From: Diphasiastrum complanatum
Taxonomy: Eukaryota > Streptophyta > Lycopodiopsida > Lycopodiales > Lycopodiaceae
DNA: 64,000 bases
Direction: 5' to 3'
NCBI GenBank assembly: GCA_029204225.1
Contig: CM055102.1
Coordinates: forward strand, 31,738,607 to 31,802,606
The notes below the pieces were generated by a model that saw only the letters and a program-made list of their open reading frames with translations, was not told where the DNA came from and made no database searches. Position 1 is the stretch's first letter. The number at the start of each line of letters is the position of its first letter. Positions 1 through 54,587 of the stretch are shown one piece after another. The position numbers and the translations under genes were made by a program.

Positions 1-299
1 TGATTTTATCATAGTAGAGCTCATGCTATTACAAACCAATCTACCCACTTATTTCATATTCATCATCAACGGAATACTCGTAAGTACTCTATGTTTGTCG
101 CCATTTCAAAATAGTACACACTAAAGGTTGAATGACATAATTTGCAATGACACACTAGTAATGTTTGTCTAATTACACTGCGAAAAAGAAAGAAGCTGAT
201 AACGTGCTACAAAGATCTACCTACCACAATCACAATTGCTATCAATTCAATACCTTTTGTATCTATGTTTGTTCTGTGCTACCTGTATTATTCTAATCT

Positions 300-858
300 T
301 TATTTAGTGTAATAACATCATCATCAACGCCATCATCATCAAGGGGTGGCTAAAGCCTTGCCCTCTCCTATATGCTCAGGATAATTTCTTGCCTGAATTA
401 GTACACCTGGGCTGTTGTGTATTCACAAAGTGTAAACTGCAAGATAGAATATTTACGTATTAGTTATGGTTAAAAAATCTATAGCATAGAAAAATTAATC
501 ACGACTTCAAAACCAAGAATAAATAGAATAAATTACCTTTGAAATATCAACATCATGTTGAAGGTTGAACCACTTAAAAAATATCTTTGCATTATACAAA
601 GTGTACCACACACAACTGAATGAATCATGTTCTAGGGTGACTGCAAAATTAGAACACATAAGATATCAATGAAAAAAACCACACAATGAATAGAATATAT
701 TAGAAGGTCGATTTTAAAATGCTAATGAAATGGACATGATTTACCTTTAGATTGATGATCTCCCATTCCACTACCTTTGCATTCTCGTTTGGAATGTATT
801 TACATATTATTGACATGATCGAGTCAATATCCTTATGCGTATTACTAGCTGAATTCAT
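300..858 (-). pseudogene. Gene X, copy 1: small three-exon gene of unknown function
   Basis: The gene starts at an ATG at 858. Exon 1 (858-745, 114 nt) begins MNSASNTHKDIDSI and ends at a GT donor. Exon 2 ends at 537 and encodes a stretch containing VWYTLYNAK and DVDISK. Exon 3 lies near 445-370 and contains NTQQ and KKLS. Exon 1 has exactly the same length as in the locus 3 copy, and the donor sites match. Differences between the copies are mostly substitutions; a one-base indel in exon 3 and an unclear acceptor for exon 2 suggest this copy is broken. The protein is small (about 90 residues), rich in Asn, Tyr and Trp, with no signal peptide or membrane segment visible. It is transcribed away from gene Y, with about 180 bases between their starts. 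No known family is recognised. Confidence 0.55.
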
Positions 859-1037
859 CTTTACAGAAAAAAGTTTTATTACATTATCTATAGATCTTGT
901 GAAAGAGATCAGATTTAAGCTCCAGCGCTCACTACAAAATAAAAAAGATAGTTTATTAGCTGCAATTTTGAGAACCTGTGCACGTCCTTAACAACCACTT
1001 TTTTCTTGTCTGCTTACCTCGTGCACAAAAGTGATAT

Positions 1038-1980
1038 TTGTCTGAGACTGTGGCGTCGTCTTCCGGATCTAGCCGTGAGAGCACCCTTAGTGCATTTCTA
1101 ACTTATTTTGGAATTTCTGAGAACTTAGACTACTTTCATTCCCTATTTTGTCCTATTTTACATGTTTTCAAGACTGCGCAACCCAATGTTGAAGTATCTT
1201 ATGAACATTATGTTAGATTCAGGGATATAGTCAGTATACATGTTATCTCCATAGGTCCTCTCTCCTTCATGCATTTTACTGATCTTGTCCATTTCTTCTC
1301 ATAGGTCAAGCAGAGATTGGATAGGATGTATAGTAAATTGTTTGAACAATTTAGAAGCACTACGATGTGTGCTGTCTGTAAGAGAAAATGTGTTGAATAC
1401 CAGACTGGGTTCATACTTTTTCTGTTAGTGCAGATCCCGGATGATGAGAAAGTTGTAGCTTCTGATCCTCAAACTACCTCATCCTCAATTCCATCATCCT
1501 TAAAAGACATTAGTCACTTTCTTATTGACACTCTTGACAAAGATAGTGATATCTTTGATGTTGATACTGAAGTGCTTCGGGATTTTTCATTGGCTCAAAT
1601 TTTGTTGTTGATGAATCAATGTCTAATGTTGAATATAAGATGATGAGGAAGGGCTTCTGATGGGTGATGAATGCCTGACGAAAAATTTGTCAGATTTTGT
1701 TGAGCATGGATGAAGCATGTCATCTGAAGAAGAAGTCATGGCAATTCAATCCGAGATGGGCTTTTCTCGTCCATCATCAATGCACATTCTAGGTTTTACT
1801 GATGAGAATGTTCCTTTAAGGAGCTCTCATTATTCATTATACTCTACATATATTGAACTTAGTGGAAACAAGGATAATGCACATCTATTAGATGCCTATT
1901 CAAACATTTCTTTATGGCAATACAACCATTGAAAGAGATACAAAATCTGATGATGAAGAGTGAAACTTTGTATTATGTTA
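1038..1980 (+). pseudogene. Gene Y, copy 1: unknown protein with Cys cluster
   Basis: At least three coding blocks are visible. Block 1 (1,038-1,250) includes YFGISENLDYFHSLF. Block 2 (1,305-1,640) includes YSKLFEQF, the cysteine cluster CAVCKRKC and QIPDDEKV. Block 3 (1,717-1,932) starts MSSEEEVMAIQ. Blocks 1 and 2 align with copy 2 near 44,440-44,830 (DKLEYFASVFFAL; YSNLHDHF; EIPDDESV), so they are genuine protein-coding remnants. A GT-AG intron between blocks 1 and 2 is likely. The start is damaged: the position where copy 2 has ATG has TTG here and a stop lies just upstream. Block 3 has no clear match in copy 2. Function unknown. The only hint is its place in a repeated cassette beside a transposase-like gene. 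Confidence 0.5.
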
Positions 1981-2179
1981 TTATACAATCAATACATATA
2001 CAATGAGAATATATCATTTGACTATGATGCTCCTCTCTCTTGCTCCATAAATTTGCGAACTTTTCTAAACTTGTCATAATTTGAAGACAATTATATCAAA
2101 ATCATTTGTATATGGTATATTTTGAAGAAGAATATAATCTGCTATTTAGCAAATTTTTATTTCCTCTCTTCATGTATGA

Positions 2180-4770
2180 ACTTGCATGCTTTTCTAAACA
2201 TGCTGTATTCTATGGATTTTGTTATGTGCAAATCTGAACTTTGCGGTAGAACCAGTGAAATAATTGACAAATATAGTTCTTTTTTATTGGTTCCTCCATG
2301 TTGTGTATTTCGATGAATTGCCACATCAGCCTATTGCCTAGGCTTCACACGTGTGAGAACAGAGCGTCTGAAAATCTATAGTAGGGCGCACTTCCCATGC
2401 TTGCCAATGTGACTTTTTCATCCCTTGTTATGACCAGACACTAAGGCTTCCATATGTGTTTGCAAAAAATATTGTATTATATCTTAGTATTGATGTGCTG
2501 CACATGTCAAAAATGTAATGTCAGTCTTATGCTTGGATCAAAATATATAGTTGAATTGAAAGAAACTCTAATAATTTATACTAACCATGTAATGAGTGAT
2601 GTGATCTGCTCCCCAACAAACTCGACACAAGTCTTTTGTAGAGCTTTCTTATCAGTATAGAAAATTTATCCTTTTTAAAAATTTTAATTAAACTGTCAAG
2701 CTTCGTCCATACATCAACTTTTAGTAATCTAGCTTTGCTGCTCACCTCAAAGTCTTGAGTGGAAGCAACGATATCTTTCTAGACTGTGTTGAATATTAGA
2801 AGCCTTACTAGTGTGGCTTGACATGAATCGACGTGCTTTTGCTCCTCCTATGCTTGGCTTAGTAGGCATATTTCCTGACTAACCTGAAAGCTTTTCATCT
2901 TTTTGCATTTTGACATGTCCATTATGAAGTCTTTTTTTTTATAGAACATCTTCTAATCGAGAGAGAGCTTCCTTCGCCAGTGATGTTGGCTTAGTATTCC
3001 AAGCAAAAACTATATAAAGATAAATGAGCTTCTCTATTATCCTAAGTTCTGCATGAAGAGTGCAAACATGCACATTTTTTAAGGGAATAGGCAATACAGG
3101 CTTCTAGTTTGGATCTACATTTTCTCTAGTAATTCATGTACTCCTAAAAACATCTTTTGTCATTTTCATGCAGTACAAACAACGCCGCTTAGATGTAGCA
3201 CTGTGAGAGACATTATACGTGCATTTCAATGTTTTCAAATCACCTGCTAAGTGCCATTCAACATTGAAGTCTCCAACTCCTGGAACATTGAGAAATCTTC
3301 CATCCATATGATCCTTGATGATTCTAGGATAAGATGTCCTAGAGAATATCCATGATGATAGTATATTATGATCCTCCTTCAGTACCTGTCTAAAGAATAA
3401 ATCAAACTTAGTTAAATAAGAACTAATACTATCCATTGAATTTAAATAAGAATGAGAAAAATCACCTTCAAGGTTGCCAACACTGAATCTGAAATCTTTT
3501 TGGTCCACTGTTTGTGATAGTGCACCATTCATGAGAGTTATACTAACCCTCTCCATCTTTTGCCCTTTCACAATTTCTGACTCATCTAACTTAAGTACTA
3601 TGATTATTTTACCATTCACCTTTTCAAAGGTTATATCACAGAATGTGACCATGTATCTTAGCAAGTGATTTAGATCAACAAAGAAGTTGTTTGATGAATT
3701 ATAAGATATTGATCTTCCTTTAATTTCATACACCCCCTCAATATAAAATGGGGTATAAATAATCTTATGCATACCTATGTTTAATGTATTTCTCTCTTTC
3801 TTGAAGTGATATGACCTTGGTTTAGGACTTTTCTAATTTGAACTTGCTTAAAAGCTTCTCTAACAAGTTGAAATATTGTTGCATATGCTTCTCTGCTAAT
3901 ACCTGCAAAATCATAGGCACCCTGAAATATAGTCTTATCTAAAAAAATTTGAATGTCCACCATCAAAGGCTCTATAATTTTGCACTTTACATTGGAACTC
4001 CTATTGTTCATCATGATACACTCAGTGGATTTTCCTGTCAATATTGTGCCCACCAATGACATTCCAAGTGAAGCATTGTCCTTAATATTCTGGAGAGCTA
4101 CTAATGCAGATCTAGAAAAAAACCAGATATTTAGTAGAATATCACCGTAGCTGAAATAAATCCATATGTCATTGATCAAGTTACAAAAATCAGAACATGC
4201 TTACTTGAATGCACAAATGCTTCTATTTCGATAACCTTCTTTTGAAAGAGTTTGAATATCCTTGCAACTTTGTCGCTTTCATTTGTTATTCCTAGCCTTC
4301 TTCTTAGCCACTTCCACATCCTTTAGTAATTGTAAGTTTTCAAATCGAATTGATTGTAAGATTGATTGCATTTGCTCTAGTTCTGATTTGATATCGAATG
4401 TTATCTTTTGTAATAATTCATATTTCTTTGAAGTTCTTCATTTTCCTCTAAAGTCTTTTGGACAAGACAATCTCTTTTATGATAATAAGAGGATATGTGT
4501 ATCAACAGTATGCCCATTGCATATCCATGTAACTAGATGAGTTATTGAAGAGAATGTGGGATGAGTCAAAGTGCTAGGATCTTGAGAATACAATGTTCCA
4601 TCAGTCCACAAATCCAAGTTCTTCTTTCCTTCTTCCCTATAATGGAAATGATCCTCAACAAATATTGAAATTCCTTTGCCTCTTCTTCTCTGTAAAGGTG
4701 CCAAATCAGTAAGAATATCCATTTAAAGATTATACAATGTCGTCATCAGAGAAAACAAGAAAGTAATTAC
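2180..4770 (-). pseudogene. Gene Z, copy 1: putative DDE transposase-like gene, decayed
   Basis: Read from the right, the blocks are: an N-terminal module (4,722-4,480; NLDLWTDGTLYS); a coiled coil (about 4,470-4,200; ELEQMQSILQSIRFENLQLL); a domain at 4,108-3,790 (QGAYDFAGISREAY); the core at 3,772-3,134 (KLDESEIVKGQKMERVS, then LAGDLKTLKC, then CLYC); a segment at 3,100-2,830 (LPIPLKNVHVCTLHAE); and an end near 2,440-2,250 (QGMKKSHWQAW). Each block aligns with copy 2 at 51,370-54,020, with a matching donor after the coiled coil. Asp in KLDES (codon 3,584-3,586), Asp in AGDLK (3,239-3,241) and Glu in QGMEK are my guess at a D-D-E triad. Here the Glu is Lys (2,416-2,418), and stops and frameshifts occur, so the copy is dead. 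Not HNH, hAT or MULE by any motif I can see. Confidence 0.6.
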
Positions 4771-4879
4771 ATGCATCAAAGTGAGTCAGAACAGATTTTT
4801 CAAAACAAATCAAAGTACTTATCTTTTATTATATTGTATACTCTGTACCATCAATCCATTGATTTTGCTTTTCCACTTG

Positions 4880-5131
4880 GTTCAAATTTGAAGATGGCAC
4901 TCATATTTTCATTCCAATGTGAAGATTGCGCTCATGTCAACCAAATGGAGGGAATGCATATTCAAATTTAGACAAGCTAAACTCTTTTGTAACAACAATT
5001 CTTACATTTTACTTTATTTCTTGATTCAAATTTGGGGATGGCGCTCATATTTTAGATCCAATGAGAAGATTGCCCTCATCGTAACCAATTGAGGGAATGT
5101 TTATTCAAATTCAGACAAGTTAGACTGTGAA
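4880..5131. repeat. Two-copy tandem duplication upstream of gene Z
   Basis: Two imperfect units (about 4,880-4,983 and 5,025-5,131) share AAATTTGAAGATGGC / AAATTTGGGGATGGC, then CTCATATTTT, GAGGGAATG and TTCAAATT-AGACAAG. They lie just upstream of the first Z block, where a promoter would be. A second short direct repeat (ATTGTCCATAAATCTAAG, 5,391 and 5,423) follows. The rest of 4,771-5,900 has no gene I can support; 5,600-5,760 is a degenerate TCTCATT/GCTTGC low-complexity stretch. Confidence 0.6.
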
Positions 5132-5912
5132 CAATTTAGAGTTCTTAACTGTGATTGTAGACACTATGGTTAGAGCATTGGGAGTTGGGAAGGCCTCGGG
5201 AGTGGTGGGAGCAAGCAAATAAACAATATATATATATATATTAATGTTATTTTTTTTATTATCGTATATGGCATTTCCTTGTAGGTTCATTTTTATATTT
5301 GAAACTCCTCTAATGTGTTCAATTTTGTTGTGTTAGTTGCCTTCCCCTTGGATATCCAATGAGCTGAATAGTGTATAAGTACTACTCAACATTGTCCATA
5401 AATCTAAGAATTGGCCTAAAATATTGTCCATAAATCTAAGAATTGGCAAAAAACTCCTTCACAAATGCCACTAAATCATTGCAACCGTTGCTTTGCTCAA
5501 AAACTGTGGCTAATTTTTTAAAGTCAATTAACCGTCGTCTGGTGACGTTTGCAGGGATGGATATCCATTGTCGGGAAACAATTGATTTGAAACTTCCTTT
5601 CCATGCCTATCAGCATTTTGGCAACTCATTTTATCTCATTGCTTTCATTGCTCTCATTTTGATTTGGCTTGCTTGCTATTGCTCTCATTTTGACCTTGCT
5701 TGCTTCCTATTATCTCATAGTGATCTTATTGCCTTCTAGTTGTCTAATCACCTGTTGACATCTTGTTGCTTTCTAATATAGTTGCAATCTATAGTTTCTT
5801 TTTGGATTGTGCTTTAGTTACTCTAGTTTAGTTTTTTTAAAAAATTCATAGAGTTTTTGTTTTTGTTTTTGTTTCAACATATTTTTTATGTGGTTAGTTA
5901 TTGTCCCACTGG

Positions 5913-6197
5913 TCTTGATGGCCAGTGGAAGTGGTGGACGGTGCGGTCGGCATGACCGGTTGTCTAACTCTTCTGAGGGTGCATCCCTCTAGGTCCAGCA
6001 GCAGCCATAGCTCAAGTGGTGGCCGTGGAGGTGTCACCTCTGGCAACAACCAAAAGGAGGCACTTTGTCTTATGAGAGGCTTGCACCCTTCTACTTGTCA
6101 GTATGTCTACGAGCAATCGATGCGTGAGGACGTGGTGATTGGCTCGCCTACACCTACCAACGAGTCCAGCACATCCCCATATGATATTCATGTATAA
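5913..6197 (+). CDS. Unrecognised GC-rich ORF beside a CACTA end
   Basis: An island clearly richer in GC than its surroundings carries open reading in two overlapping frames. One frame begins with ATG near 5,920 and reads MASGSGGRCGRHDRL before a stop; the other runs to 6,197 and includes HSSSGGRGGVTSGNNQ and EALCLMRGLHP. The composition, rich in Ser and Gly, could be a disordered N-terminal region or an exon of a CACTA-encoded protein, because a CACTA-type terminus follows at 7,040. Neither frame shows a known domain. The true frame and splice pattern are undecided, and the island may be a captured gene fragment. Confidence 0.25.
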
Positions 6198-6359
6198 ATG
6201 TAAATATTTTTTTGTAAATAGAATATGTATACATACACATTGTTAATTAGAATACGTAGCACAAAAAACGACATCAATTTTGATCAATGCTAGTGCTCAC
6301 TTAAAAAATAACACAAGAATTCTCTAAAAAATGAGAGAACTCGTTCATATATATGTACT

Positions 6360-28469: not shown

Positions 28470-28760
28470 TTGTTACAGAGAAGCATATCATCCAACCGAC
28501 TTGTGTGGAATTTGTTGATGCCATATTAAAAGCATGGGGGCCAAATCACATCAAGCATTATAGGGTTAGTTACTTTGAGTGTTCCTTGATTTCCGAGTCA
28601 TTACTCATTTCAATTTTTCTTCTGCTAATTCTATATTTTACTATTATGCAAGAAATACTCAGAGATCACACATCATTCTTTGCCAATACCTACGAGAGCA
28701 TGAGTATCTGGTCATCACAAGGAATGGAGAAATTGACTTGACAGCTTGAAACGTGTCTCA
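28470..28760 (+). pseudogene. Gene Z, copy 3: last exons only
   Basis: Two exons match the 3' end of gene Z in the other loci. The first (about 28,482-28,561) follows an acceptor TTACAG and reads PTCVEFVDAILKAWGPNH, ending at a GT donor. The second (after TATGCAAG at about 28,651) contains SMSIWSSQGMEK. The same SIWSSQGMEK is in copy 2 at 51,530, and the intron is at the same place there. The putative catalytic Glu of QGMEK is kept, but the match stops soon after at a TGA. Everything upstream of this exon is lost, replaced by Copia-C. Confidence 0.7.
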
Positions 28761-29239
28761 AGCTCATTGCATCAAACATCGACACGTGGCCCAATTTGAT
28801 TTGTTGCCACTTCGCACATGCGACACGGTGTCTGTTCGCACGTGCAAGCCGTGGGATAAAGGACTTCATCCTTGAGACATTTTTCACTTTTTTTTTGGCT
28901 GCCCCACGTATCGGTCTTGTGCGACACTCGTCCACCATCCCATTTCATAGCTAGTACACTACCTGCGATATGTCGTTCAGTTTTGTACATATCGCTTCTC
29001 TACGACCCTCGTTACACCACTCTCGCTCGTATATGTCAATCGCACAAGTCCAATATCTCGATAGCCTAGCTATATGGATAGGAGGAAGCAGACGAAGAGA
29101 GATTTTTTTTTTGCCGGTTCTTCCTCAAGGCCTCCCATTGCCTTGAATCCTCCAAGGCAAACAAGAAGGTGTAACGGCAACAGGTGGTTATCTAATATTC
29201 AAAATTATTAGAGGTCAACCAATCTCCTTCTTTTCAGAG
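28761..29239. other. GC-richer spacer with hairpin; no gene recognised
   Basis: The stretch has many CGACAC, GTGTCG and CACGTG words and an inverted repeat GCGATATGT / ACATATCGC at 28,965-28,973 and 28,987-28,995. No coding sequence is recognised. A run of T at about 29,105 follows a purine-rich segment. Confidence 0.35.
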
Positions 29240-29455
29240 CACCCTTTTGCCATAGTGTTCGCCAGATCACTAGGAATGATCTTGGAAGTTTTGTTAGGTT
29301 CACACCCGCGACACTTTAGTGCCTTTGAGAGGCTGCTGAAGATTATCAAAGCCTATTTTTTGCTAGCCATACATGTCAAGCGAGTTACCATAATGCCAAA
29401 AGACTTTCAACTGCTATATAGGATGCGAGATAGGTACTCTAGATTACATAAGGGT
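29240..29455 (+). pseudogene. Histone H3-like fragment (histone-fold C-terminus)
   Basis: The frame reads VFARSLGMILEVLL, then AFERLLKIIKAYFLLAIHVK, then RVTIMPKDFQLLYRMRD. The segment AIHVKRVTIMPKDFQL is the unmistakable end of histone H3 (AIHAKRVTIMPKDIQL in the family), and the preceding part fits helix 2. About 11 residues of the usual loop before the Ala-Ile-His are missing, the N-terminal tail is absent, and the frame runs on for 28 unrelated codons to 29,539. No intron is visible. It is a diverged H3 or CENH3 pseudogene, or a fragment captured by the X-Y-Z repeat in which it lies. A functional histone is unlikely. Confidence 0.75.
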
Positions 29456-29875
29456 GTGCCATATCATACCACTATTAACAACAAGAAGCATATAAATTGT
29501 CTTACTTGGTATGATATGGCACGAGCAGGTACATGGTGAGTGGTGTGCATCGACTAAACATGCACTCTACCAAAGGAGTCGTTTTTCTCCTTAATGGACT
29601 GAAGGAAAAAATTGCTGAGAACTAAGACTTCTCGGCTTGAATCCCTTGCAATGTCAAATTGCAAGAGTTGAACCCAGACTCTATCACATGATCACTGATA
29701 GAAGCCTGTCTGTTTTTCAGATCCAAACAATCAATAGTCCTTAAATTTATGCTAAAATCAGGTTCCTCTAATCTAAAACAAAATGAAATTCCTACTCTAT
29801 CAACAACATCAGATATGTCATTCTCAAATTTTAGATATTTATCCGCATCTATATATGTGAAAAAAAAAATTAAAG
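29456..29875. other. Spacer upstream of gene X, copy 3
   Basis: No gene seen. On the minus strand near 29,665 the word GGGTTCAACTC resembles a pol III B box, flanked by an inverted pair GCAATGTCAAATTGC. No A box at proper spacing was found. The final 60 bases are AT-rich and directly precede the X start codon. Confidence 0.3.
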
Positions 29876-30359
29876 ATGAATTCGGCTAGTAATACGCATA
29901 AGGATATTGACTCGATCCTGCCGACAATCTATAAATACATTCCCATAGATAATGCCAAGGCAGGGGAAGGCGATATCATCAATCTGGAGGTAAATCTTGT
30001 CCATCTCATCAACATTTTAAAATCAAGATTATAATGTATTCTATTCATTGTGTGGTTTCCTTCATTGATATCTTGTTTGTTGAACTTTTTGCAGTAACCC
30101 CAGCAGAATGATTCATTCAACTATGTGTGGTACACTTTGTATAATGCAAAGTTGTTATTTGAGTGGTTCAACTTTCAACAGGATGTTGATATTTCAAAGG
30201 TAATTTATTTTGTCTATTCTTGATTTTGGAATCATAATTAATTTTTTTATTCTGTAAATTTTCTAACTGTAACTAATACGTGAATATTCTATCTTGTAGT
30301 TTACAATTTGTGAATACACAACATCCAAATGTACAAATTCAGACAGGAAATTATCCTAA
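29876..30359 (+). CDS. Gene X, copy 3: intact three-exon small gene
   Basis: With GT-AG introns the frame is open throughout. Exon 1 is 29,876-29,989 (38 codons, MNSASNTHKDIDSILPT). Exon 2 is 30,107-30,199 (31 codons, NDSFNYVWYTLYNAKLLF). Exon 3 starts 30,300 (FTICEYTTSKCTNSDRK) and stops at 30,357-30,359, giving 88 residues. All introns are phase 0. Donors are GTAAAT and GTAATT; acceptors are CAGCAG and TTGTAG. Exon 1 length and start are identical in locus 1, and coding exons are better conserved than introns, which supports a real protein. It has no known domain, is aromatic-rich, and has two Cys in exon 3. Expression is unknown, and with its host element truncated it may be dead. Confidence 0.55.
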
Positions 30360-30774
30360 GCATACTGGCGAGGGCAAGGCTTCAGCCACCCCCTGATGAT
30401 GATGGCGTTGTTGCTAATGTTATTATACTACATAATGATTAAAAATATATAAATAGCACAGAACAAACATAGATACAAAATGTATAGAATGGATAGGAAC
30501 ATATACAAGTATATATCAAATGCAGCTCCATTTTATTGTTTTTGGGAGCCCAGAAAACATGTGTTGATGCCCAATTTGAGCTTTCATTTATTGAGTGAAA
30601 GAGTCTATACACAGATTTTATTGAACTATATTTGAATCTATTACTCTTTTACAATGGTGATTGTTGTAGGTTATAGATCTTTGCAGCACGTTATCAGCTC
30701 TTGTCTTTTTCACTAATAAGACAAATATTAGTGAAATTATGTCATTTTTCTTTAGTGTGTACTATTTTGAACTA

Positions 30775-31564
30775 TTACAAGTTAGCTCTCTCACCAATGG
30801 AACCAGATCTCAAATTGTCAAAGGACAAGTGTCTCCGAACAATCGAAGAGAAGAAGCAGATGCGTGAGTATCTTTATCATTCTATAATAGAATTTTTTAT
30901 GTACACAATGATCTGTACCAGGCCAAACATAGCTTTTGCAGTCAGCTCCCTAAGTCAGTTTATGACTAATCCTTGTGTAACACATTGGAAGGCTCTTATC
31001 AAAGTTATGAGATATCTTCGAGCTACTATGGACTTTTGCATTTGTTATGGAGCAGTCGACAACGACAAACTCAATTTACTCATTGGTTTTACCGATGCAA
31101 GTTGGGCATGAGATGTAGACACTCGTAAATTCACTTCCAAATTTACGTTCTTCCTCAACAATGGTCCAATTTCCTAGAACAGTCGCAAGCAATCTTCGAT
31201 AGCTCTATCTTCTACAGAATCAGAGTATATCGTAGCCTCACAAACTACAAAGGAAGCAATTTGGTTGAGAAACTTACTTTTAGATATCAGTCTGAATCAA
31301 TATGCTCCGACATTATTATTTTGTGATAATCAAAGTGTCATTGTCTTATCAACCAACCCTAGATTTCATTCTAGGAGTAAGCACATTGAACTGAAGTATC
31401 ACTATGTTAGAAGCAAAATTCTCGACAAAGTGATCATATTGCAGTACTGTCGAACGCAAGATATGACAGAAAATATTTTCACTAAAGCATTAAGCTTGGA
31501 TGCACACAGAAAATTCTGTGCAGAATTAAGTTTAAAGGTCAAGACATTCATGGATTCAGATTAA
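30775..31564 (+). pseudogene. Copia-B1: RNase H region of pol
   Basis: The reading begins abruptly with NYYKLALSPMEPDLKLSKD, in the RT/RNase H connection, and runs through ICTRPNIAFAVSSLSQFMTN and GFTDASWA. A stop follows, then SSIALSSTESEYIVASQTT and a final open frame 31,265-31,564 (LLFCDNQSVIVLSTNP, RSKHIELKYHYV, MTENIFTKALSLDAHR). Catalytic RNase H Asp (TDAS) and Glu (TESEY) are kept. It is nearly the same family as Copia-B2 (62,040-63,420). Gag, protease, integrase and most RT are missing at the junction with X-Y-Z locus 3. Confidence 0.88.
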
Positions 31565-31802
31565 CAGAGAGTGTTGTATTATTCTCCTTCCTACTAATCG
31601 ACTAATCGGTTTTTAATCTTCATCCAATTGTTTATCCAGTTCTGCGGATTCTCCCGTGTTTTACACAGTTTGTAGAATTACAAGTGTTTTTACATAGTCT
31701 ATAGAAATACACGGAGTTTGACAACGGTGTCAAAAATTTTCTCACTACAAAACTCGACACTATCATTTTTTTGCTACACTCAATTTTTTCTTAAAGCGAC
31801 AC

Positions 31803-31950
31803 TGTCAAAAATTTTGAATAAAAATGTAGTGTCTCGTTTTTTGCATTTTTCGCCTATCAAAAATTTCGAGTAAAAATGCAGTGTCACGTTTTTCGTATTT
31901 TTCGCCAGTTAAGAATTGTGAGTAAAAATATAGTGTCGCATTTTTCAAAG
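31803..31950 (+). repeat. Tandem repeat, 52-bp period, about 2.8 units
   Basis: Units at 31,803-31,854, 31,855-31,906 and 31,907-31,950 share CAAAAATTT, GAGTAAAAAT, AGTGTC and TTTTTCGCC. The array lies inside the Copia-B1 LTR upstream of its TATA box, so it could act as a duplicated promoter element (an inference). Confidence 0.8.
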
Positions 31951-32237
31951 TGCCTCAAATTTTAAAAAAATGAATTTGGCAAAGTGTGGGGCTACCCCAA
32001 TATTCAGGAAATGAGATTTTGCGACATTGTTGTATTTCTCACAAAACTTGCATTTTTCGCTTTCTCCCTGATGATAGTTACGTTCATTTCTGCAGAGTGA
32101 CAATCACGTTCATTTATGCACACAGACTGTTTACGGCCAAATGTCACCGCTTATCAGCAAACAACTTCTGAGAAGAACTGGATGAATGCCAACATACTCC
32201 AGCCAACTGGCAGCCGTATTTGACAACCTAATTGCTT

Positions 32238-32254
32238 AGTATAAATAGTTGTTC
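32238..32254 (+). promoter_or_regulatory. Copia-B1 LTR TATA box
   Basis: CTTAGTATAAATAGTTG contains a canonical TATAAATA and is identical in the second LTR copy at about 63,594. Conservation between copies and position in the LTR support a retroelement core promoter. Confidence 0.65.
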
Positions 32255-32962
32255 ATATTTCAACATCTTAACTTAGATCAAGTATTGAATAGTTAGTTTT
32301 CTCTCAAGCTTGCGATCTTGAACACTCTTGGGTCTAGTTCAGTTCTTTAGAGTTGATTAGAGATTGCTATTGTGCTTACTGCTTATCAGGAGTTGTGCTT
32401 AATCTAGACACATATGAACCATCAAAATCCATCAAGAATCTATACTTGAACCTCACTAAATGGCCCAAATCCTTGAAAAAGCCTGCACACGTGTGAAAGT
32501 ACGGCCTCCCACATTTTAGCCGCTCAGAGATAGCTTAGAGTACGCAACTTTGATCCGCAACTTGTTGTACTCATTTACATTCGTTTTGCTTTCATACTGC
32601 ATCAATACTATCTTCTTATTGCGTTCAGTTTCGTCTTGGAATGTATGCATTTTTGTTATTCTTCGCGACTGATTATTTGTCTGATAATTCAATGTTTTAA
32701 ATGTTTGGCTACGTAATCACTGTAATCAAAGTTACTTACTATAAGATCAAACATGATTTCTATCACCATTGTTTTGTTCGAAATTGATAGGCGTAGTCAT
32801 GCATAAAGAAAGAGGAAGATATCTTATTCGACCTATCTTTTACACACATCTTTCCAACAATACTAACAAATCTGATATAGAGTGACCTCCAAGAATCGTC
32901 TTAAACTCCAAAAATTTTGCTTTCCAATAAGATTTGTATGTCATCTTTGCCCATTTCTTCTA

Positions 32963-33085
32963 TCAAAATTTTTTCTTCGATGATGGATGCAACAACACCC
33001 ATGAATTCTTCGTATATTTTGTTAGCTTCCAGTTATCAGTGTCATCTTTCATAGACTCAATTGTAGATCTTGGTCTCCTTGCCAT
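32963..33085 (-). pseudogene. Short repeated ORF, copy 1, unknown
   Basis: The minus-strand ORF of 40 residues begins MARRPRSTIES and ends SSKKKF. A second copy at 55,681 begins MARKPRSTVES, with DNA identity over about 35 bases around the start codon and weaker similarity beyond. Both lie at edges of retroelement sequence (the Copia-B1 LTR here, the Gypsy-2 leader there). The basic N-terminus is compatible with a gag or a DNA-binding peptide, but no family is recognised. Confidence 0.35.
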
Positions 33086-33554
33086 TGCTATTTTCAAAGC
33101 TTGGGCGCCAAAAATCTCTCTAATATGATACTCAATTCAATTTTTTGTATCACATTTAATCTCATGAGAATGCCACAGTAGTCACAGTTACTGGACATAC
33201 TATACTTCTATAATTGTAACTAGTCTAGTAACAAATTTCATTATACTAACCAGCAGTAGTTAAAATAAATTTAATTTGAGGTATTGAGGTCGAGCAGATA
33301 AGGGCAGAAAGAGCGAACCAATGGGATACATCCATGCTACGACACAAATTTCAAAGTTTGTTCTAATATAGTTTTATTTTTCAATTTATTTGAGCTACGT
33401 TATGTAGATTTGAAATTTGTCCATTTTGATTGGGTCAGGTAAAAAAAAAAAGTATCTTTACAAAGGGTCATTTTTTATTTTGGAATTCCTCTAATGAATT
33501 CAATGTTTGTGGAATCATGAGGTTGCAAATAAGAAAAATGCAATAGGTAGAATC

Positions 33555-42154: not shown

Positions 42155-42380
42155 GGGGCTTTGAAGTTTGGAGCTCTTTCTCTCGACTCTCCTCCTCCTC
42201 CAACAATTTTGGGAGATTCTGCTCACCAGCTCTTTTCAGTTGTATTTAAGCTACGCTACTCATGTCTCTCCTCCCTCCACGACATCATTTCCAAAGCGCC
42301 CACTTATATTCTAGCCACGTGTCATGCTCTCGTTAGAATAATCCAAACATGTAAACCAGCCCACGCTAAGTTCCAGCGCG
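42155..42380 (-). promoter_or_regulatory. Promoter region of the UNC93-like gene
   Basis: On the minus strand a TATA-like CTTAAATAC is at about 42,243-42,251, roughly 90 bases upstream of the ATG. A G-box/ABRE-type CCACGTGT is at 42,315-42,322. TATA placement would start transcription near 42,215, supporting the 42,154 start. Abscisic-acid or light-linked bZIP/bHLH control is possible but inferred only from the motif. Confidence 0.45.
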
Positions 42381-44424: not shown

Positions 44425-44939
44425 ATGGCCTCAGATGACAAACTTATGGATTTTTTAATACCATTGACATTCCATCTGACAAATTAGAGTATTTTGCTAG
44501 TGTCTTTTTTGCTCTCTTCGATATCGATAAGCTAGTTTATGAGAATTGTTATAATTTAATTTCTTATCTTGATAATTTTTCTCAGACTATTAGTACTCAT
44601 GTCATGGATATAGAAAATTTTTGTTTCGTTCATTTTCAGGACCTTGTACATTCCCAACCATCCTCTAAGCATAAACACAATACAAAGTACTCTAACTTGC
44701 ATGACCATTTCAAAAGAAATATATACTGTGATATCCACAAAAGAATATGTCACCTTCTAATCAAAGGAATGGCTTTTGTGTTCTACATATCTGTTGAAAT
44801 TCCAGATGATGAGTCTGTTGAATCTTCAACTGTTCCATTGATCGAAGCATCTACACCTGCTCGAGCTGATGTAAATGATGCAGATACTGATATAGGGGTT
44901 GAAGTTGAAGCTTTTATGGCTTCAGATTATCAAAAGACT
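44425..44939 (+). pseudogene. Gene Y, copy 2, 5' part (up to insertion)
   Basis: The ATG at 44,425 begins MASDDKLMDFL; after a one-base shift comes IPSDKLEYFASVFFALFDI, then a long frame from 44,604 with YSNLHDHFKRNIYCDIHK, EIPDDESVESS and a Glu/Asp-rich stretch ending in SDYQKT at 44,939. The first parts align with copy 1 (ENLDYFHSLF, QIPDDEKV). At SDYQKT a foreign element starts (TGTTGGCTG), and the frame resumes precisely after it at 50,274, so this is one gene split by an insertion. The function is unknown; it is not a recognisable protease, helicase or nuclease. Confidence 0.55.
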
Positions 44940-45223
44940 TGTTGGCTGATTCTGACGAATCCCCAAGATACTCGGGCAGAGCTACCCATGAGCATCCCTA
45001 CCCTTAGACCGAGGAGGTCTCTAAGAAGACGAGACAAACAAAGACTGAGAGCCGAGGAATACTAGTTAATACTGTCAAGTAGAAACTGTGTAAGCCTCAT
45101 GGTGAATCCCAAAAGATAAAATGACCATGTAGGAACTAGTATTTCTAAGCAAGGTAATAAATGCAAGTAGGCCCCTCTTAGAAAAGTAGAGTGAGCCACC
45201 TTTTGATGGTGACATCTAGTGGA
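44940..45223 (+). repeat. Left inverted terminal repeat
   Basis: Pairs with 49,975-50,268. It shares GATACTCGG, AGAGCTACCCA, CGAGGAGGTCTCTAA and AGTAGAGTGAGCCACCTTTT with the reverse complement of the right copy. The match ends at GACATCTAGTGG. Downstream at 45,292 TTGCTTATTTAAGAGACTCC resembles an LTR core promoter, which supports an LTR origin of this end. Confidence 0.85.
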
Positions 45224-47080
45224 GAGCATAATTCCACTTGTAATTTGTGTAATGTGGAAATGCCACTAAGATGCCACTTTAGAAGCTCTCTTGCTTATTT
45301 AAGAGACTCCCCCTTTGTAGAAGGGAAGCTTTTGTGAATGTATCTACTCCATGCTGAAATGAGACTATCTTCCATGAGTTTTGATGCATTCTTGAGTTCC
45401 TTGATCATTCTTATTTCTTGAGTGATGCATTAATGATCTTGCCCCTCCATCTCCTTTGTGTGTGGTGGTGGATCTTAGGGAGGACTAGATTTCTTGTTAT
45501 TTCATTTATGTTTGTGGATTAAAGTAGGTTTCAACATTCAAGTAAACTATAGAGGCTAGAAATGTGGTGTAAATCTTGCATATTCTTGACATTCTAGTTC
45601 TTGATGTTCTTGGAATGTCCAAGAATCAAGAAATGAGTGTTTCTTGATTCTTGGACTTTCAAAATGCTAGCTAGAGTAATTCTTGTTTCTTGTTTCTAGT
45701 TGTGGATTAGATTTTTTTTGTTTTGGTGGATTAGTGTAGGTTGCAAGCATCCAAGAGATTTGTAGCCAATAATGCGGTATAGATCTTGCAAATTCATTTA
45801 CGTTTTGGTTTCTTGAGTTTCTTGGAAATTTCAAGAATTAAGAAGATGGAGCTTCTTGGTTCTTGAATGCTTGTAGAAATTTGTTTTTTTGTTCTTTATG
45901 AGGAATGTCGCATGCTAGTCTAAGTTTTATGGTCTTGCAAGTAGTTTAGTTTTTGTTTTGCAATGATCCGTTCTAGCATTTTGTTTTTAAGTGCCATAGT
46001 AATGACCAACCGTGTTTTAAGAAGAACTGTTTTTGGGCATTCTTGGTGTGCTTGCATGGTAGAATGTTTGCAAGTGATCTCAAGAGTTCAAGAGTATCCA
46101 TGACAGGTTGAACTATACTACAACCTTGAGAATCTTTCTGCCTGATCTGGGCATGGTAATAAGCAAGATAAAAACCAAGACATGCCCACAGTTCCTGGTT
46201 ACAGGCAGAAAGTAGATGCTGTAACAAGAAAGAAACAGTATCAGAATCTACAATGTAGAATCTGCCTACATTTGGCCCCGTTGCTGCTTGACCTCACACA
46301 CATCATAAACCTTTTACAGTTGCAACGTTGTTCTCCAACAACTCAACAAACATTCTACCTATCTAGATCTATCATCCTCTACAGTTTGGAATATATCCTC
46401 TGCAACCTGCAACACCCAACAGAATAAACAAGCAACTCCAGACACCCTGCCACCTGGAGACAACCTGCCAACATCCTCCATATTCTGCAAACAACTTCCA
46501 AACGACCTGCACATCCCCTGTACGACACTCCACTCCCTCCTGACTGCACAACATGCACACAACATCTAACACACCTGCAACTATCCTATACACACCAACA
46601 CCAAACCACACCCTCAAACGACCTGCAAACGCTCTCTACGTTATGCAACCCCCTAGCACACACATTACACAACCACCTAGCTTACCCACTAACCAAACCC
46701 TTTGCACTCCCATTACCCAAACCTAGTAACACACCCAATACACAATAGCTAACTGACATATTTCCCAAATCCACCCTTACCAACTAACTGATGCAAAAAG
46801 AAAAAAAATAGATATTCCCAATGGAACACCATACAGATCCCCATATTACAAATGAATATCCACATCGCATGGTGTCACCCAGATCTGAAGAAATCACACA
46901 TCTTAGATTATCCCGAATGCGGTCCCATATACAAGAGTCATCTACAAACCCATTCGACAGCCGTGAACTTGATAGAGCTGACTCTTCACGAGCAAGGGCC
47001 CATTTTTATGGTGTTGAACCCTCACAAGCTAAAACCCACCTTAATGGCGTTTTTGCTATCCACGGTGCTCATTATGAGAA
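45224..47080 (+). other. Element interior, non-coding left half
   Basis: It starts with LTR-like sequence (TTTAAGAGACTCC at 45,297, then a T-rich region with the repeated word CTTGATTCTTG). A strongly cytosine-rich, guanine-poor plus-strand stretch follows at 46,300-46,800 (ACACCC, CAACCTGC words). No gene was recognised. Confidence 0.45.
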
Positions 47081-48260
47081 CAGAATCCAAAATTGGATCT
47101 ACCCAAGTACGACGGTAGTTCGGGCCCTCAAAGATTCTTGCAAATCTTTGAGAATGTGTGCGATGTGTATGGCGAGACATCTCCCGACGCTATGGTCCAA
47201 CTGTTTTCTATGACCATAATCGCTAAAGCACGTGACTGATTTTTTTTTAATCTCGATCGTGATGATAAGACTGATTGGTCTGTATTGAAGCAATCCTTTA
47301 TCAAGCATTTCAAGCCCTTTCGTTTGATAGAGAGTCCTTTTGTCAAATTGAGTGATATCAAGATGGCAAAAGAAGAACGCGTACAAGACTATATCGAGCG
47401 TTTAAGTGCTTAAAGAGTCAAGTACAAGACCAGCCCACCAAATAGATGCTCATCATTTGGTTTTTAGTTGGACTTCCAAGATGGATTAGACGTGCGCTTA
47501 AATCCAATGACAAATACACGTGCCCCAAGTTAGCAATGTCTGATGCCATCCAAGATGAAGATGAAGGATCCGATGTTGACGAACCTAGGGAACGAAAAGT
47601 ACTTCGTGATGTTGTCCATGAGTCGAAGCCGATCGAGGATACCCAAGATCGGCTTTGGAAATCACAACTGGAGTTGCTTAATCAGCAACACCAACTGCAA
47701 ATCGAGAAACTCACTAAGGAGTTTCGAAACGCATTGACATCTATCCAAATCCATATGTCTGCTCAACTACACCCTACATAGGTGCCTTGTAGACGACGAA
47801 CCATCTGGTGTCCACAATGTCGGGCTACACATCCTATTAATGATCGTACTTCATATTTGCATATTTAAGCCAATTTCATACAACATTATGAGGATCAACC
47901 ATCCAACTCTAAATCAACCTTGTTTTATCACGAACACAATTTAAAAATCCAGAAGTCCTAGCCATACAAGAGGGTTATGTGATTAAACAAGGGCCAATGA
48001 ACAACAGATGTTTCATCTGTGGTGAAACCAGCCATTTCATGGTTGATTGTCCAGTCAAGGCCAAGTACGATGTTGAGTGTCCTATTGTGTTAGAAAACAC
48101 AGTTTCAAAGACTGTCTACAACAACCACATAAGATCCTACCTGCCTGACACATCAGTTATGACTCCCGATAGGATCCTCACAACAACACAACCCGAGCAC
48201 CATAGCAACCTACCGTCAAGAAGTTGCTTGCCAACTTCTATATTGCCATGAGTTACCCAA
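47081..48260 (+). pseudogene. Gag-like fragments inside the insertion
   Basis: Around 47,240-47,420 the frame reads DRDDKTDWSVLKQSFIKHF and KMAKEERVQDYIERLSA, matching the retrotransposon-gag domain. A stop follows. The frame 47,446-47,781 ends in a coiled-coil-like QLELLNQQHQLQIEKLTKEF. At 48,000-48,070 a CCHC knuckle, CFICGETSHFMVDC, is intact. No protease, RT or integrase is present, so the element is non-autonomous. Confidence 0.65.
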
Positions 48261-48779
48261 CTCAATCATGGACCAGAGACGTCAATGATGAAATGAGTTC
48301 TTACCGAAAGACAGGGAAACCAATATTCTGTCATCTGCTATCATTTCCATCCACGAGCAACCTCACCAGGGAATTCACAGTTTTTATATCTTTCTGCAAC
48401 CTCAATTTTATATGTCTACTACATGCTGAGACGATTTCCAAGGCCTTACACAGATCTGATCCTTTGATGTCCCCAACAATCGATAAGAAGTCTATATCGA
48501 AATTCATTTTAATGAATCTTCTGAACAAAGGAGTACTACGGAAATAGTATATTCTCCTTCCATACATTTCAAGCTATATCTTACAACATCTGCTATCATT
48601 GATGGTAGATTTAGTGCTACCACTCCCGCCTTGTTTTTGACAAGGACATGTTAGAGTTTTTTACTCTACCTCCCGATGAAAATTGCAACTATCTAGGTGA
48701 CGTATCAATGTTGATGAATGACTTTTTGTTTGACAAGTGCTCTATAGTTTTCACTCTCTGTAAGATGGTATCTTTCTTG

Positions 48780-48813
<34 letters not shown>

Positions 48814-49974
48814 ATTATTTTTTGTCATTCTTTATTTTATTTATTTTTGATTTGATAATTTCTTCTAATTGCATCTCTTTTTCTAGATTTGCTTTTAGTT
48901 CATCAAGGATATTCATTGAACAAGAGATGTCATGTAGCGTATCTCAAGAATAACTTGTCATTCATCTATCAATCTTCAGATCACCTTATACAGAGATAGG
49001 ATTTTTGTGCATATTGCAAATTTGCGAAATCCATGTCAATTTAGAGTTGATTCCTAAATCTCATTGCCATATTAGATTTCGAGTCAACTACAGAAAGATC
49101 GAGACAAATTTAGTTAAAATTTGTTCAATCTTCAGTTCAATCGCATGTTCAACGTGTTTTAACTGCGTGTTCCAACCGCCAATCCAACCTTGAGCATGCC
49201 GGATACCAGCAACAACATTGCCACCAACAAAAAAAAAATTTGGGGGGGGGGAGAGAGTGGATTTGCAACCATCCACGGAAGTAGCCCCATTGCCAGCAAC
49301 AACATGAGCAAGATCGATAGCCAAGGTCACAAAATCAAAGACAACAAAGACAAGGCTAACAAAACAGATGGGCAATCCAAAGAGACTCAATCAGAAGAAG
49401 TACCCCAGTCATGACGAAGATCCTTCAAAAGATGGAAGTACAAGCATTGGAAAATCAGTCTCCTTCTCCAGCCAACCCTCTTGACAACATCTGCATCTAC
49501 TCTCATGCCTATCGCCCACACCATCTATCGATGTCACCACCACCATTCTACCCTCCATCTCTCTGTTTTCCACCGTTCCACTATTCATCTGCAAAATTTC
49601 CAATCTTTTCAGATCACTGATAGTCTTACCGAAGTGGCTAAGAGATCATTGCAAATGTCTTGCGGAGACCAACTACCACTTACATCAGTTGGTCAACCAG
49701 AAAAGAAGACCTAAGGAAACAGACAAAGCAACAAAAAGAAATAAAGCAAAGAAGCTGAGGAGGAAAGGAATAAACTAAAGCAACAGATGAGTCAGATTGA
49801 TTTTGATCAAAAGAAACTCTTTGGGGCAATGATAGTCGAATTTCCTCCTATGAAGCCCGAAGAAATCCAAACATAATGGATCAAAATAAGAAAGAGCTGC
49901 AGAAAAGCAAAAAGATGAAGACAACCGTGAACCTACAGAATAAAGTGAGCTCATCACTTAGCAAGTGGTGGTCC
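48261..49974 (+). other. Element interior, right half; no clear gene
   Basis: A T-rich stretch at 48,770-48,870 is followed by coding-like but broken frames (49,190-49,414, Lys and Asp-rich, SKIDSQGHKIKDNKDK; and Lys/Gln-rich remnants to 49,940). They look like gag or spacer remnants. A poly-A and poly-G tract is at 49,232-49,249. Nothing further is recognised. Confidence 0.4.
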
Positions 49975-50268
49975 CACTAGATGTCACCATCAAAAGGTGG
50001 CTCACTCTACTTTTCTAAGAGGGGCCTACTTGCATCTATTACCTTGCTTAGAAATACTAGTTCCTGTAGGGTCATTCTATCTTTTGGGATTCACCATGAG
50101 GCTTATACAGTTTCTACTTGACAAAATTAACTAGTATTCCTCGACTCTCATACTCGGCTCTCAGTCTTCGTTCGTCTCGTCTTTTTAGAGACCTCCTCGA
50201 TCTAAGGGTAGAGGTGCTCGTGGGTAGCTCTGGCCGAGTATCTTGGAGATTCGTTAGAATCAGCCAAC
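49975..50268 (-). repeat. Right inverted terminal repeat
   Basis: Reverse complement of 44,940-45,223, with a few substitutions and a short local duplication (GAGCCGAG-like words repeated around 50,130-50,160). It ends CAGCCAACA at the target duplication AAACT. Confidence 0.85.
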
Positions 50269-51280
50269 AAAACTCTCCCTCGTTCTATAATCCTCTCTGA
50301 TTCTCTTCCATCTGCATCTTTTGTTAATCAATTAGCTCTACTCAATGTTCCTTTATATTTTATAAATAATGAATGTTATATTTCATTTAATGATATTAAA
50401 GATGTATTGAATCTGAGAGAGGATAAGATCCTCTCAATCTTTGCTCACAATTTATCAAATTTTTTTTGACATTGTTGATTACTCATATGATGACCTTGGA
50501 AGTGAGATAAATCATGATAAAAATGGCAATTGAAATGGCAATGAGGCCTTGGAGGCCATGATTGAAAAATCTAAAGCCTATGAAAAGACTTTGCCTACAG
50601 AGGAGAAATTTTTGGAATTTCAAAAAAATATCCCCCTAGGGCTAGATATATCCCCTCCGGAAATGTAGAGGCCATTGGAGGACATGACATTAGCAGAGCA
50701 AACGTCATTGATTACAATGATTATGATTTGGTAAGTAGATATTATATTGGTATTGATATTGTTCAGTTTTCTTATTTCTTATTCGTATTGATATTGTTTA
50801 GTTTTCTTATTGAGTTTGCAGTGTTATGTATCATTCTAAATTTATTTTCTTTTCTCGTTTACATGATGCTATTGAAATAGATGCCTTTGATATGAGACAT
50901 GGAGACGTTCGAGGTGTATCAGCCGGGAGAAAAGGCGTTTCTCTATCTCATTATTTGAAAAACTTTCAAAATAATGAGATATGTATATATCATTCATCTT
51001 ATAATCCATATGCAACCATTGTCATTATGGCATCAAATCATTACCAATTTGTTTAGGAGGCCATAAGTACGCAAGAGGAACATATAACATAATTTTTGTG
51101 AAGAGAGATTTGGCTATTAAGATATTAAGTTATACTCCCAATGAGACTACCAAAAGATCATCTGCAACGACCCTTTATTTGGGTTACATTGATATGAACA
51201 AGAAGAAAAATTTCGAATTTTTGGATCTATATGAAAGGAGATTATTCTTTCATGACAAATACCATCCGTCTGAATCTTGA
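50269..51280 (+). pseudogene. Gene Y, copy 2, 3' part
   Basis: The frame that ends in QKT at 44,939 continues with LPRSIILSDSLPSASFVNQL and ECYISFNDIKDVLNLREDK to a stop caused by a T-run shift at about 50,464. It then continues with DIVDYSYDDLGSE, KAYEKTLPTEEKFLEF, ARYIPSGNVEAIGGHDISR and NDYDL up to a GTAAGT donor at 50,731. After a TTTGCAG acceptor (50,820) comes HDAIEIDAFDMRHGDVRG, then after one more shift RGTYNIIFVKRDLAIKI, and the end FHDKYHPSES at 51,280. Three or four small indels break an otherwise protein-like sequence. No domain is recognised. Confidence 0.5.
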
Positions 51281-51369
51281 AGAGAATGATGATGATAATT
51301 AAATAATTTTCTGTAATAGATTTTTGATAAATTACAAGGATCTCTCTCTTGTAATGAATTTGAATGCCT

Positions 51370-54010
51370 TTCAGAATATTGTAATACTTGGCAAATTTTT
51401 AGCTTGATATCTAAATTGCGCTCTTCTGTAAAACCACTGAAAAAGTTGAACTAAATATTTATTTCTTGAATTGTGTCCTCCATGATTTGTTGCTCTATGA
51501 AATGCTCCCCTTGCTTGCCAATGAGATTTTTCCATGCCTTGTGATGACCAGATACTTAAACTCCCAAAATAAGTTGCATGATGAAGAAGGATGTGCTGCA
51601 AACACTAGTTTTGATTAGCTACATCAGTAGAAAAAAATATAAGCCTGAATGAGAAAAGTACCAAATAATGATATAGATTAGCACCATGTAATGAGTAACG
51701 TTGGATTTCCCCAACAATCATGTACAGATTTTACAAATGTGGCGCAATGATTTTGCAAAGTCCTCATATCTTTTGATGATAGGTTTTCTTTCCTGATAAC
51801 ACCTATGAGTTTGTCTAAGTTGGTCCACACTTGTCCCTTTTCCACTCGATTTCTTCCTTCCAATGTTCATGTGGCTTGAACAATTTCTCTCCAAATTTCA
51901 TATCTGACACTTGATTCTTTGCATGTGTGATTGGATAAAAATCTTCTTGTTTTAGCACCTCCAATTGATGGCTTATTAGGAACGTTTTCTTTTTTCCTTG
52001 AGAGTCTGTCACTATTTTCAATTGTGACATTTCCTTTATGTAGTCCTGCATTTGACAGAACTATTTCCAACCTCCTAATTGCTGCTTTAGCCACTGACTC
52101 TGGTTTATGATTCCATGCTAGTAGAATATGCAGGTAAATTAGTTTTTCAATAATACAGACCTCAGCATGCAATGTGCATATGTGAACATATTTTAATGGA
52201 ATTGGCAGAACACTTTTCATTTTTGGATCTTCAGCTTCTCGTGTTGGGCCAATGTTTGTTGATCGTCCCAAATTCATATTGTAACAATCCTTCATGCAAT
52301 AAAGACATGGATGCTTTGATGTTGCCCCATGAGAGACATTATACATACATTTTAATGTTTTCAGGTGCCATTGAATTTGAAAACTTCCATGGTTTTTGAC
52401 TATAAATTTCTCACCCTCCAAATGTCTCTTTATAATCTCGCCATAGTCTGTTCTTGAAAATATCCATGATAGTATTTTATGGTCCTCTTTCAAGACCTGT
52501 AGAGAAACAAGTAATGCATCACATGTCAACAATAACTGGCAAGGTATGAATTGTTGATATAGATATTCTAAATGAAAATTGAAATATATACCTAGAATGC
52601 TGCCAACCACCGGTGATATGTGATTTTTCGATTAAACACTAAACGTTCGATCATCTGTATCTGAAATTTTATTCATCAAAGTGACACTCACACGTTCCAA
52701 CTTCTGACCCTTGATGACTTCAGATTCATCCAATTTTATTACAATAATGATCTTTCCATTTACTTGATGTTCGTCTAGTTTATAGATCGAATAATGTATT
52801 TTAGAACATTTTCACTATCAAGAAAAATATTATTGCAATCATTGTAATTGAGGTCACCATATTCTGATTTGTATAATTTAGTTATATGAAGTGGTTGGCC
52901 AACTACTTTGAACATTCCGTCATTATAGAAATTTCTAGCTAATCTTACCCGATATGGACGCGGAAGATAATTTTCTTCACCATCACTTGGGAAAAAGTTT
53001 CTTTAACTATTCTAAAAAAATAGAATAAGCATTTCTGCTAATTCTAGATACATCACATGCACCTTGTATCACATTCGCATCCAAGTATGATTGAACCTTA
53101 ATCAAAACAGTCTCTACAATTTCATTTTTCATTTTTTCAAGCCGAACATTTTTTATCATTTCCTTTGTTGACTTTCTTGGTAAAACATGACTTAAAAATG
53201 ATCCAATGCATGAACGATCTGTTAAATAGTTCTTTGCCACCAAACATGATCTACAACAAACATATGAAACTCAAATTATGTTTAATAAATAAATAATCCA
53301 TGTTATCAAGTGCAAAATAAACTTAAATGACATATACAAATCAAATAAACAGTTTAGATGACAACATACTTGAATGTTCGAATTTTTTTTTTTTTATTGT
53401 CGCTATGTGTAGATAGGTCATCAATATTCTTCATCGGTACTCTTTCTCTTTTTCTCTTTATCATTGTCTTATTGATAACTTTTAGATCAACAACAGATTT
53501 TAAACTCTCCGATCGCAACTTTTCCATGGATTCTAACATTTCTTGGTTTGATCCTCGAAGAGTAGTGATAGTAGCATTCAACTCTGACATAGCATTCTTG
53601 AGTGCATTGTTTTCATCACTAGTGTGTTGCACATAATGAAGCAATTGTTGATTTGCACATTGCAATTGTCGATTAGCAAATTGTAATTGTCGATTCAGAC
53701 AAGATATGTTATGCATTCCAATATCTCACAACCTTTGACAATATCCAAGTAATCCGCTATTTCCTTCACATACATATCTGAGAAGATGAGTTACGGACTT
53801 AAAATCTGGACACAAATTGGTAGCTGGATCATCAGAATAAATTGATCCATCCACCCACAAATCTATATTCATATGATTATTCATTTTCAATTCTCTAACT
53901 ATTGCTGCATTATTCTCTACAACTCTCGCATTTTTCTTAATAATTGGAGTGCATTCCATCGGAAGAACAACATGCAAGTGGAACATTGCCATTGTTAAAG
54001 CTACAATCAT
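51370..54010 (-). pseudogene. Gene Z, copy 2: putative DDE transposase-like gene, decayed
   Basis: In reading order: N-terminal module (54,010-53,726; NIDLWVDGSIYSDDP); coiled coil (53,716-53,360; LQFANRQLQCANQQLLHYV, ends TFK at a donor); domain at 53,243-53,007 (QGACDVSRISRNAYSIF); core at 52,960-52,640 (KLDESEVIKGQKLERVSVTL); 52,500-51,867 (LKEDHKILSWIFSRTDY, CLYCMKDC, LPIPLKYVHICTLHAE, PSIGGAKTRRFL); then WGNP at 51,690 and, after an intron, GSLSIWSSQGMEKSHWQARG and LVQLFQWFYRRAQF at 51,570-51,410. An in-frame 12-base deletion removes LAGD before LKTLK, where copy 1 keeps Asp. Glu of QGMEK (51,530-51,532) is present. At least three shifts or stops make it inactive. Confidence 0.62.
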
Positions 54011-54587
54011 GTAAATGAATCTACCTACAGTAAATCAATATGAATAGATCTAGCATTCCTTACTTTTGTAATGTTTATGTTGCATTGAAAAATCGTCCCA
54101 CCTCATATTTCACTATAAGCATACAGTGATTTCAAAAGTTGCCTCTCCCACTTCAGTTTTTGCATTGAGCACACCAAGATATTTAGTCTTAAAGCTCTAG
54201 TCCCAAATTTGGGAATGAGCATGAAGAGAAGTTATTACATCTCATGCTAAACTAACTATTGTCTGAAGTTAACCATATTAGTTAAACATCGGGCAAGCGG
54301 AAAACTCGAAAAACGGTGACCAAAAGTTACCGGTTTGCATTCTCTCTCTACATAACCTCTCTCTAAAGTGAAATTTCTTAAGGGCCCATTTTGAGGCCAT
54401 ATTTCCCCTAATGCTTAGAGAATATTTGTTTTGTTTTTTTTTTTAATTTAATTGAATAGGTTGATTTGATTTGATCTTTGAATTGTTGATAAGAACTGGA
54501 ATCAAACTTCAAAACATCTTCAAACTTCAAAGATCTAGATTCAGCATCACAGAGAAACATCACCACAACATAGGCAAGAATGAATAT
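54011..54587. other. Region upstream of gene Z, copy 2; no gene seen
   Basis: Words near 54,210-54,260 (CAAATTTGGGAATGAGC, TCATGCTAAACT) faintly resemble the tandem units upstream of Z in locus 1 (4,880-5,131), which may mark a shared promoter region. No coding block. Confidence 0.3.

Follow-up and report, generated by a model that had tools for sequence, protein, structure and literature searches.

Do the genes X, Y and Z, which recur at three loci in a 64,000-nucleotide stretch of Diphasiastrum complanatum DNA (the window; C11:31738607-31802606 of a 1.74-Gb genome, with coordinates lacking a prefix being window positions), form a mobile element, and of what kind? We put a probability of roughly 78% on these repeats belonging to a terminal inverted repeat (TIR) DNA transposon family. 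The element contains at least four genes, W, X, Y and Z, rather than the three of the original prediction, which overlooked W. Judging from motifs and a predicted fold, Z is probably a RAG1/Transib-like DDE transposase that mobilises the element through its CATTAGAGGAG ends, and X carries a histone H3-like domain and a Ulp1/C48 protease domain. The common ends, the number of copies, the set of genes, the fold and domain identities and the purifying selection on the histone all come directly from computation.

A search of the whole genome with window 300-4770 returned at least 135 matching pieces spread over many chromosomes, a lower bound from scoring 40 of 8,100 first-look candidates, and the longest pieces were 82-90% identical. 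Reading covered 20 of the matched places (10 kb apiece) as well as the left side of locus 1, and three of the 20 were extended 10 kb leftward. Both ends were present in two of the extended copies, E24 (9,451 bp) and E14 (8,791 bp), and the third, E21, had its left part cut off. The TIR is 35 bp long (CATTAGAGGAGTTCTCAATATCAAAAAGACCCTTT) and returns inverted at the opposite end with no changes in E24 and one in E14. Allowing up to three mismatches, this end repeat had 2,378 matches genome-wide (1,154 forward, 1,224 reverse), and the reversed control had 0. The element termini are CATTAG...CTAATG, giving the 5'-CA...TG-3' ends characteristic of the CMCT clade. Three end pairs picked among the matches listed were spaced 8.1, 9.4 and 11.8 kb apart, L015 pairs with L033 at ~9.3 kb, and the ends of L027 lie 4.0 kb apart. 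X and Y were divergent and Y and Z convergent in the full copies read, as originally described, and the proposal of a multi-gene DNA transposon was borne out, its copies being dispersed and their ends shared.

Some copies were altered. L027 (oriented 4351-8331) is a 3,981-bp copy with two perfect ends and an internal deletion corresponding to E24 1098-6581, and from its sequence is likely a non-autonomous derivative. In L020 (oriented 8440-8500), the right end of one element abuts the left end of its neighbour, head to tail (CTCCTCT-GAGGAG), with the 4-5 outermost bases absent from both ends, resembling a joined-ends junction. A simple permuted reintegrated circle was excluded there because the second copy matches E24 6-6544, beyond the expected breakpoint, leaving a head-to-tail junction. 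L013 had lost both outer element parts at abrupt borders (oriented 2616 and 8220), of which the left border falls within the histone domain.

No Pfam transposase matched Z in the window's own pieces or among 25 listed of 48 weak families for 19 Z homologues, so by this test Z falls outside the standard plant CACTA, MULE, hAT and Harbinger transposases, in agreement with the original prediction, which fitted it to none of hAT, MULE, CACTA or PIF/Harbinger. The predicted fold of a Z homologue matches RAG1, with the Transib/RAG1 type of catalytic core, and this modelled structural relationship was absent from the original prediction. D411 and D508 lie on strands of the RNase H-like core in the model, and E785 was assigned by motif alone (predicted local distance difference test score, pLDDT, <50 there). 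C528 and C531, at least 90% conserved in the 19 homologues, form a C(2)C motif between the second D and the E. Two of the 19 homologues extend as far as the E motif, and their H(3-4)H motif ahead of the last E is YMHILLVH (P0009) or YMHILKVH (P0011). In these three respects, the DDE residues on an RNase H-like fold, the C(2)C pair and the H(3-4)H motif, Z agrees with CMCT transposons. The element resembles RAG1 and Transib/RAGL, of the CMCT clade, in predicted catalytic-core fold, in the order D, D, C-x2-C, H-x4-H, E and in CA...TG ends, but differs in having no significant sequence match, the extra genes W, X and Y, no consistent target duplication, and CATTAG where the RAG1/Transib ends have a CAC-type heptamer.

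X was analysed as a composite of 475 amino acids. Residues 22-123 match Pfam Histone (PF00125; 87.2 bits, cut-off 26.4) and residues 315-436 match Peptidase_C48 (30.2 bits, cut-off 20.7). The nearest PDB chains to the histone domain are H3 (3.5e-20), with centromeric cnp1 close behind (4e-19), and identities were 46-55% to H3.1, 43-52% to two plant CENH3 and 43-57% to a third CENH3. The values for H3 and CENH3 are almost level, and the domain may be of either type. X shares the histone fold with core H3 but has a short N-terminal tail, a C-terminal protease and a loop 1 one residue longer, the last a CENH3-like trait. Five X sequences clustered together on a long branch relative to six reference histones (support 100/100, midpoint-drawn tree). 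For the Ulp1 catalytic set H-D-Q-C, DHW and QQND...SCGW were read by eye in the copies, with no D assigned. In copy L025 a stop-free frame links the second half of the histone with the protease region, and X would be produced as one histone-protease protein. The tail starts M[DE]RRKQT, like that of H3. When tail positions were aligned by eye to an H3 tail, 10 of 11 readable copies had lysine at the K4 position and none had it at the K9 position, where ten have aspartate and one has isoleucine; L026, a twelfth copy with a different reading at the K9 position, was left out. As a sequence feature, the absent lysine is suggestive.

At least 14 of the 26 loci had histone sequence (L009, L013, L014, L015, L021, L022, L024, L025, L026, L028, the second copy behind L020, L042, L043 and window locus 3), with L009, L013 and L028 having the first part alone, and L042 and L043 having been fetched at the place where a histone was expected. 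Twelve of the 26, including window loci 1 and 2, had no histone match of the kind counted. The histone domain is under purifying selection. Its median ratio of nonsynonymous to synonymous substitution rates (dN/dS), over pairs with 0.25<dS<1.5, was 0.20 (17 pairs), compared to 0.32 for Y (94), 0.35 for W (19), 0.43 for the protease (44), 0.45 for the Z N-terminus (118), 0.48 for the linker (22) and 0.51 for the Z core (154). Adding two copies gave a histone median of 0.215 (50 pairs with dS >0.1 out of 55), and in 36 of 40 pairs the histone value was lower than the linker value. A frameshift within the histone of L043 may inflate the pairs that include this copy. Because copies decay freely after insertion, the low dN/dS points to selection during the active phase of the elements. 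Y and W are likewise regular components of the element; the fold prediction for a Y piece (window 1305-1643) was unusable, with a mean pLDDT of 44.7.

Several results weigh against these interpretations. Among the seven copies with both ends (C1:20721697, C2:29743085, C2:31646204, E24, E14, L015 and L027) there was no consistent target duplication: flanks matched at 3 bp in one (TCA, in E24) and at 2, 4 or 5 bp in none. A 5-bp target duplication is defining for Transib/RAG1, and none of the seven had one. We call the element CMCT-like instead of a CMCT member because the 2-5 bp target duplication of that clade was not seen. Decay is a poor reason for the missing duplication, as the end repeats carry 0-2 changes; either insertion leaves none or the flanks changed afterwards. 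A candidate empty site (L036/L037), compared with related repeats among the loci read, had each flank matching a different repeat. The check set out originally, on termini and duplications, yielded the many dispersed copies and shared ends and not a fixed-length duplication (1/7).

The remaining points of this kind concern the proteins. The Z model is of moderate quality (mean pLDDT 65.9) and drops under 50 over residues 761-829, the stretch with H-x4-H and E785. By sequence, the Z family profile had no significant match to RAG1 (hhalign, P 0.24) and no match in the PDB at E 10. No EnSpm, Chapaev or Mirage transposase structure is known to us, so the RAG1 fold match does not pick out a lineage for Z. 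Exon borders of the X composite were set by eye, and each of 11 X copies had at least one stop or frameshift in its aligned stretch, some perhaps in intron sequence. No homologues were found for the X tail at E 0.01 among 1,384 candidates scored or for Y at E 0.1 among 7,997, so the conservation seen for X is within this genome. One of the 50 histone pairs reaches a dN/dS of 1.58, the highest, and the pairs, compared with no correction for the tree, share ancestry and are not independent.

A family-level identity may already be available. The superfamily Lanisha comes from a moss. Membership of this element in it (for Lanisha, see Maumus, McDaniel and Carey, Repbase Reports 2020), which would make the transposase lineage a known one and is compatible with a TIR transposon family, is a possibility to which we give somewhat less than even odds. 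PMC12730594 reports for Lanisha both the C(2)C and the H(3-4)H motif, along with a similarity to EnSpm; CMCT-type motifs are common to Lanisha and this element, as compared by description. That X is instead an incidental captured host gene (transduplication), a functionless passenger, seems improbable. Gene capture is reported for plant transposons, including grapevine CACTA and MULE families with ULP1-like regions (PMC2528002), and the 12 loci with no counted histone match also favour this reading. However, the histone occurs across divergent copies with low dN/dS, and the five X sequences form one group against the six reference histones. PMC2528002 describes CACTA and Mutator-like elements resembling ours in having a Ulp1-like domain inside a DNA transposon, whereas here that domain is joined to a histone and the transposase has no Pfam family.

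Two further readings are very unlikely. Segmental duplicates of ordinary host genes, with no transposon ends, could account for the broken and rearranged window copies, but this is disfavoured because the ends are sharp and shared, the end repeat has 2,378 matches and copies lie on many chromosomes. The several genes and ~9 kb size would suit an integrated virus-like unit, an option in the original prediction that we set aside: W, X and Y had no capsid or polymerase match in Pfam, an IMG/VR scan gave no confirmed Z relative, and the fold search had no viral match at E 0.001.

As a TIR transposon, the element would move when Z binds the terminal repeats CATTAGAGGAG. X would most likely serve the element by targeting host chromatin or SUMO-dependent silencing, for instance through assembly with host histones on element DNA and removal of SUMO close by. 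We infer enzymatic activity, nucleosome assembly and an anti-silencing role for these proteins. Methylation of lysine 9 of histone H3 (H3K9) is a main silencing mark of plants, and DNA transposons carrying proteases, methyltransferases and demethylating enzymes are known. A more specific idea, which we consider rather doubtful, is that the transposon supplies its own H3 variant to replace host H3, with a tethered SUMO protease, and could thereby keep itself free of H3K9 methylation. If true, a transposon-borne histone domain under selection would be a novel means of acting on host chromatin. Element-borne chromatin or silencing genes summarised in PMC12730594 include TET/JBP in fungi, SET in HarbingerS and MuDR, and the Vandal anti-silencing proteins; those are enzymes or regulators, whereas here it is a histone itself. 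Finding a RAG1-like transposase alongside several partner genes in a plant also bears on the spread of RAG-system relatives. Searches by titles and abstract starts, with most subscription papers and Repbase Reports outside their reach, found nothing matching among the papers listed on histone-encoding or CENH3-carrying transposons, or on RAG1/Transib or RAG-like elements with plants.

All three window loci are relics (Table 1). Window 1-5315 (locus 1) aligns to E24 1585-9451 and has lost E24 2717-4559, which includes the histone. Locus 2, interrupted by a nested insertion, is distantly related; Y and Z were found there, and tblastn and alignment found no X. The X, Y, Z repeat described originally is partly confirmed, an X gene in locus 2 being unsupported. 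Locus 3 (28,492-33,496) is inverted and rearranged, with the end of Z, as predicted; its X is present in parts, with stops and one protease piece inverted, not whole.

Table 1. Element-related features of the window.
Feature	Position	Strand	Evidence
Locus 1 W, C-terminal end (rest left of window)	2..91	+	tblastn 87% over 30 amino acids, E 1e-9; E24 alignment
Locus 1 X, protease (C48) half, histone half deleted	302..973	-	tblastn X residues 323-475; E24 2716 to 4560 jump
Locus 1 Y, decayed	1050..1957	+	tblastn E 4e-68
Locus 1 Z, RAG1-like transposase (predicted), decayed	2292..4746	-	tblastn E 0.0; homologue fold matches RAG1
Locus 1 right TIR	5281..5315		8/35 bases changed
Locus 3 (inverted) Z, C-terminal end	28492..28753	+	tblastn E 3e-7; blastn 28492-28731
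Locus 3 X histone H3-like domain, with stops	29074..29461	+	tblastn 62-74%, E 6e-39
Locus 3 X protease-region piece, inverted relative to remainder	29477..29867	-	tblastn; E24 alignment
Locus 3 X, C-terminal protease part	29873..30433	+	tblastn E 7e-27
Locus 3 unrelated sequence splitting the copy	30777..32860		gap in E24 alignment; reverse-transcriptase-like open reading frames by eye
Locus 3 W, N-terminal exon	32897..33085	-	tblastn 75%, E 1e-25
Locus 3 left TIR	33462..33496		8/35 bases changed
Locus 2 divergent Y, N-terminal half	44475..44852	+	tblastn 25%, E 3e-12
Locus 2 nested insertion, 5.3 kb	44939..50270		297-bp inverted ends, 90% alike
Locus 2 Y, C-terminal half	50865..51256	+	tblastn 40-41%, E 1e-17
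Locus 2 divergent Z	51476..53992	-	tblastn pieces 29-74%, E 5e-101
Orphan W fragment, 69 bp	55619..55687	-	DNA identity 91%

Within locus 3, the open reading frame at 29147-29539 matched Pfam Histone below the cut-off (E 4e-4), and that at 30677-31111, overlapping the unrelated sequence, had no Pfam match. The nested insertion in locus 2 had a weak zinc-knuckle match at 47,913-48,251 (E 0.0016, below the cut-off). Elsewhere in the window, a 516-codon open frame at 40685-42235 (-) encodes a major facilitator superfamily (MFS)/UNC-93-like transporter (Pfam 1e-16 and 1e-14), a host-type gene. Pfam also identified retrotransposon remains at 11408-12493 (-; Pol_BBD and gag_pre-integrs), 26850-27857 (+; RVT_2), 56957-57715 (+; Ty3 capsid) and 58598-59515 (+; RVT_1).

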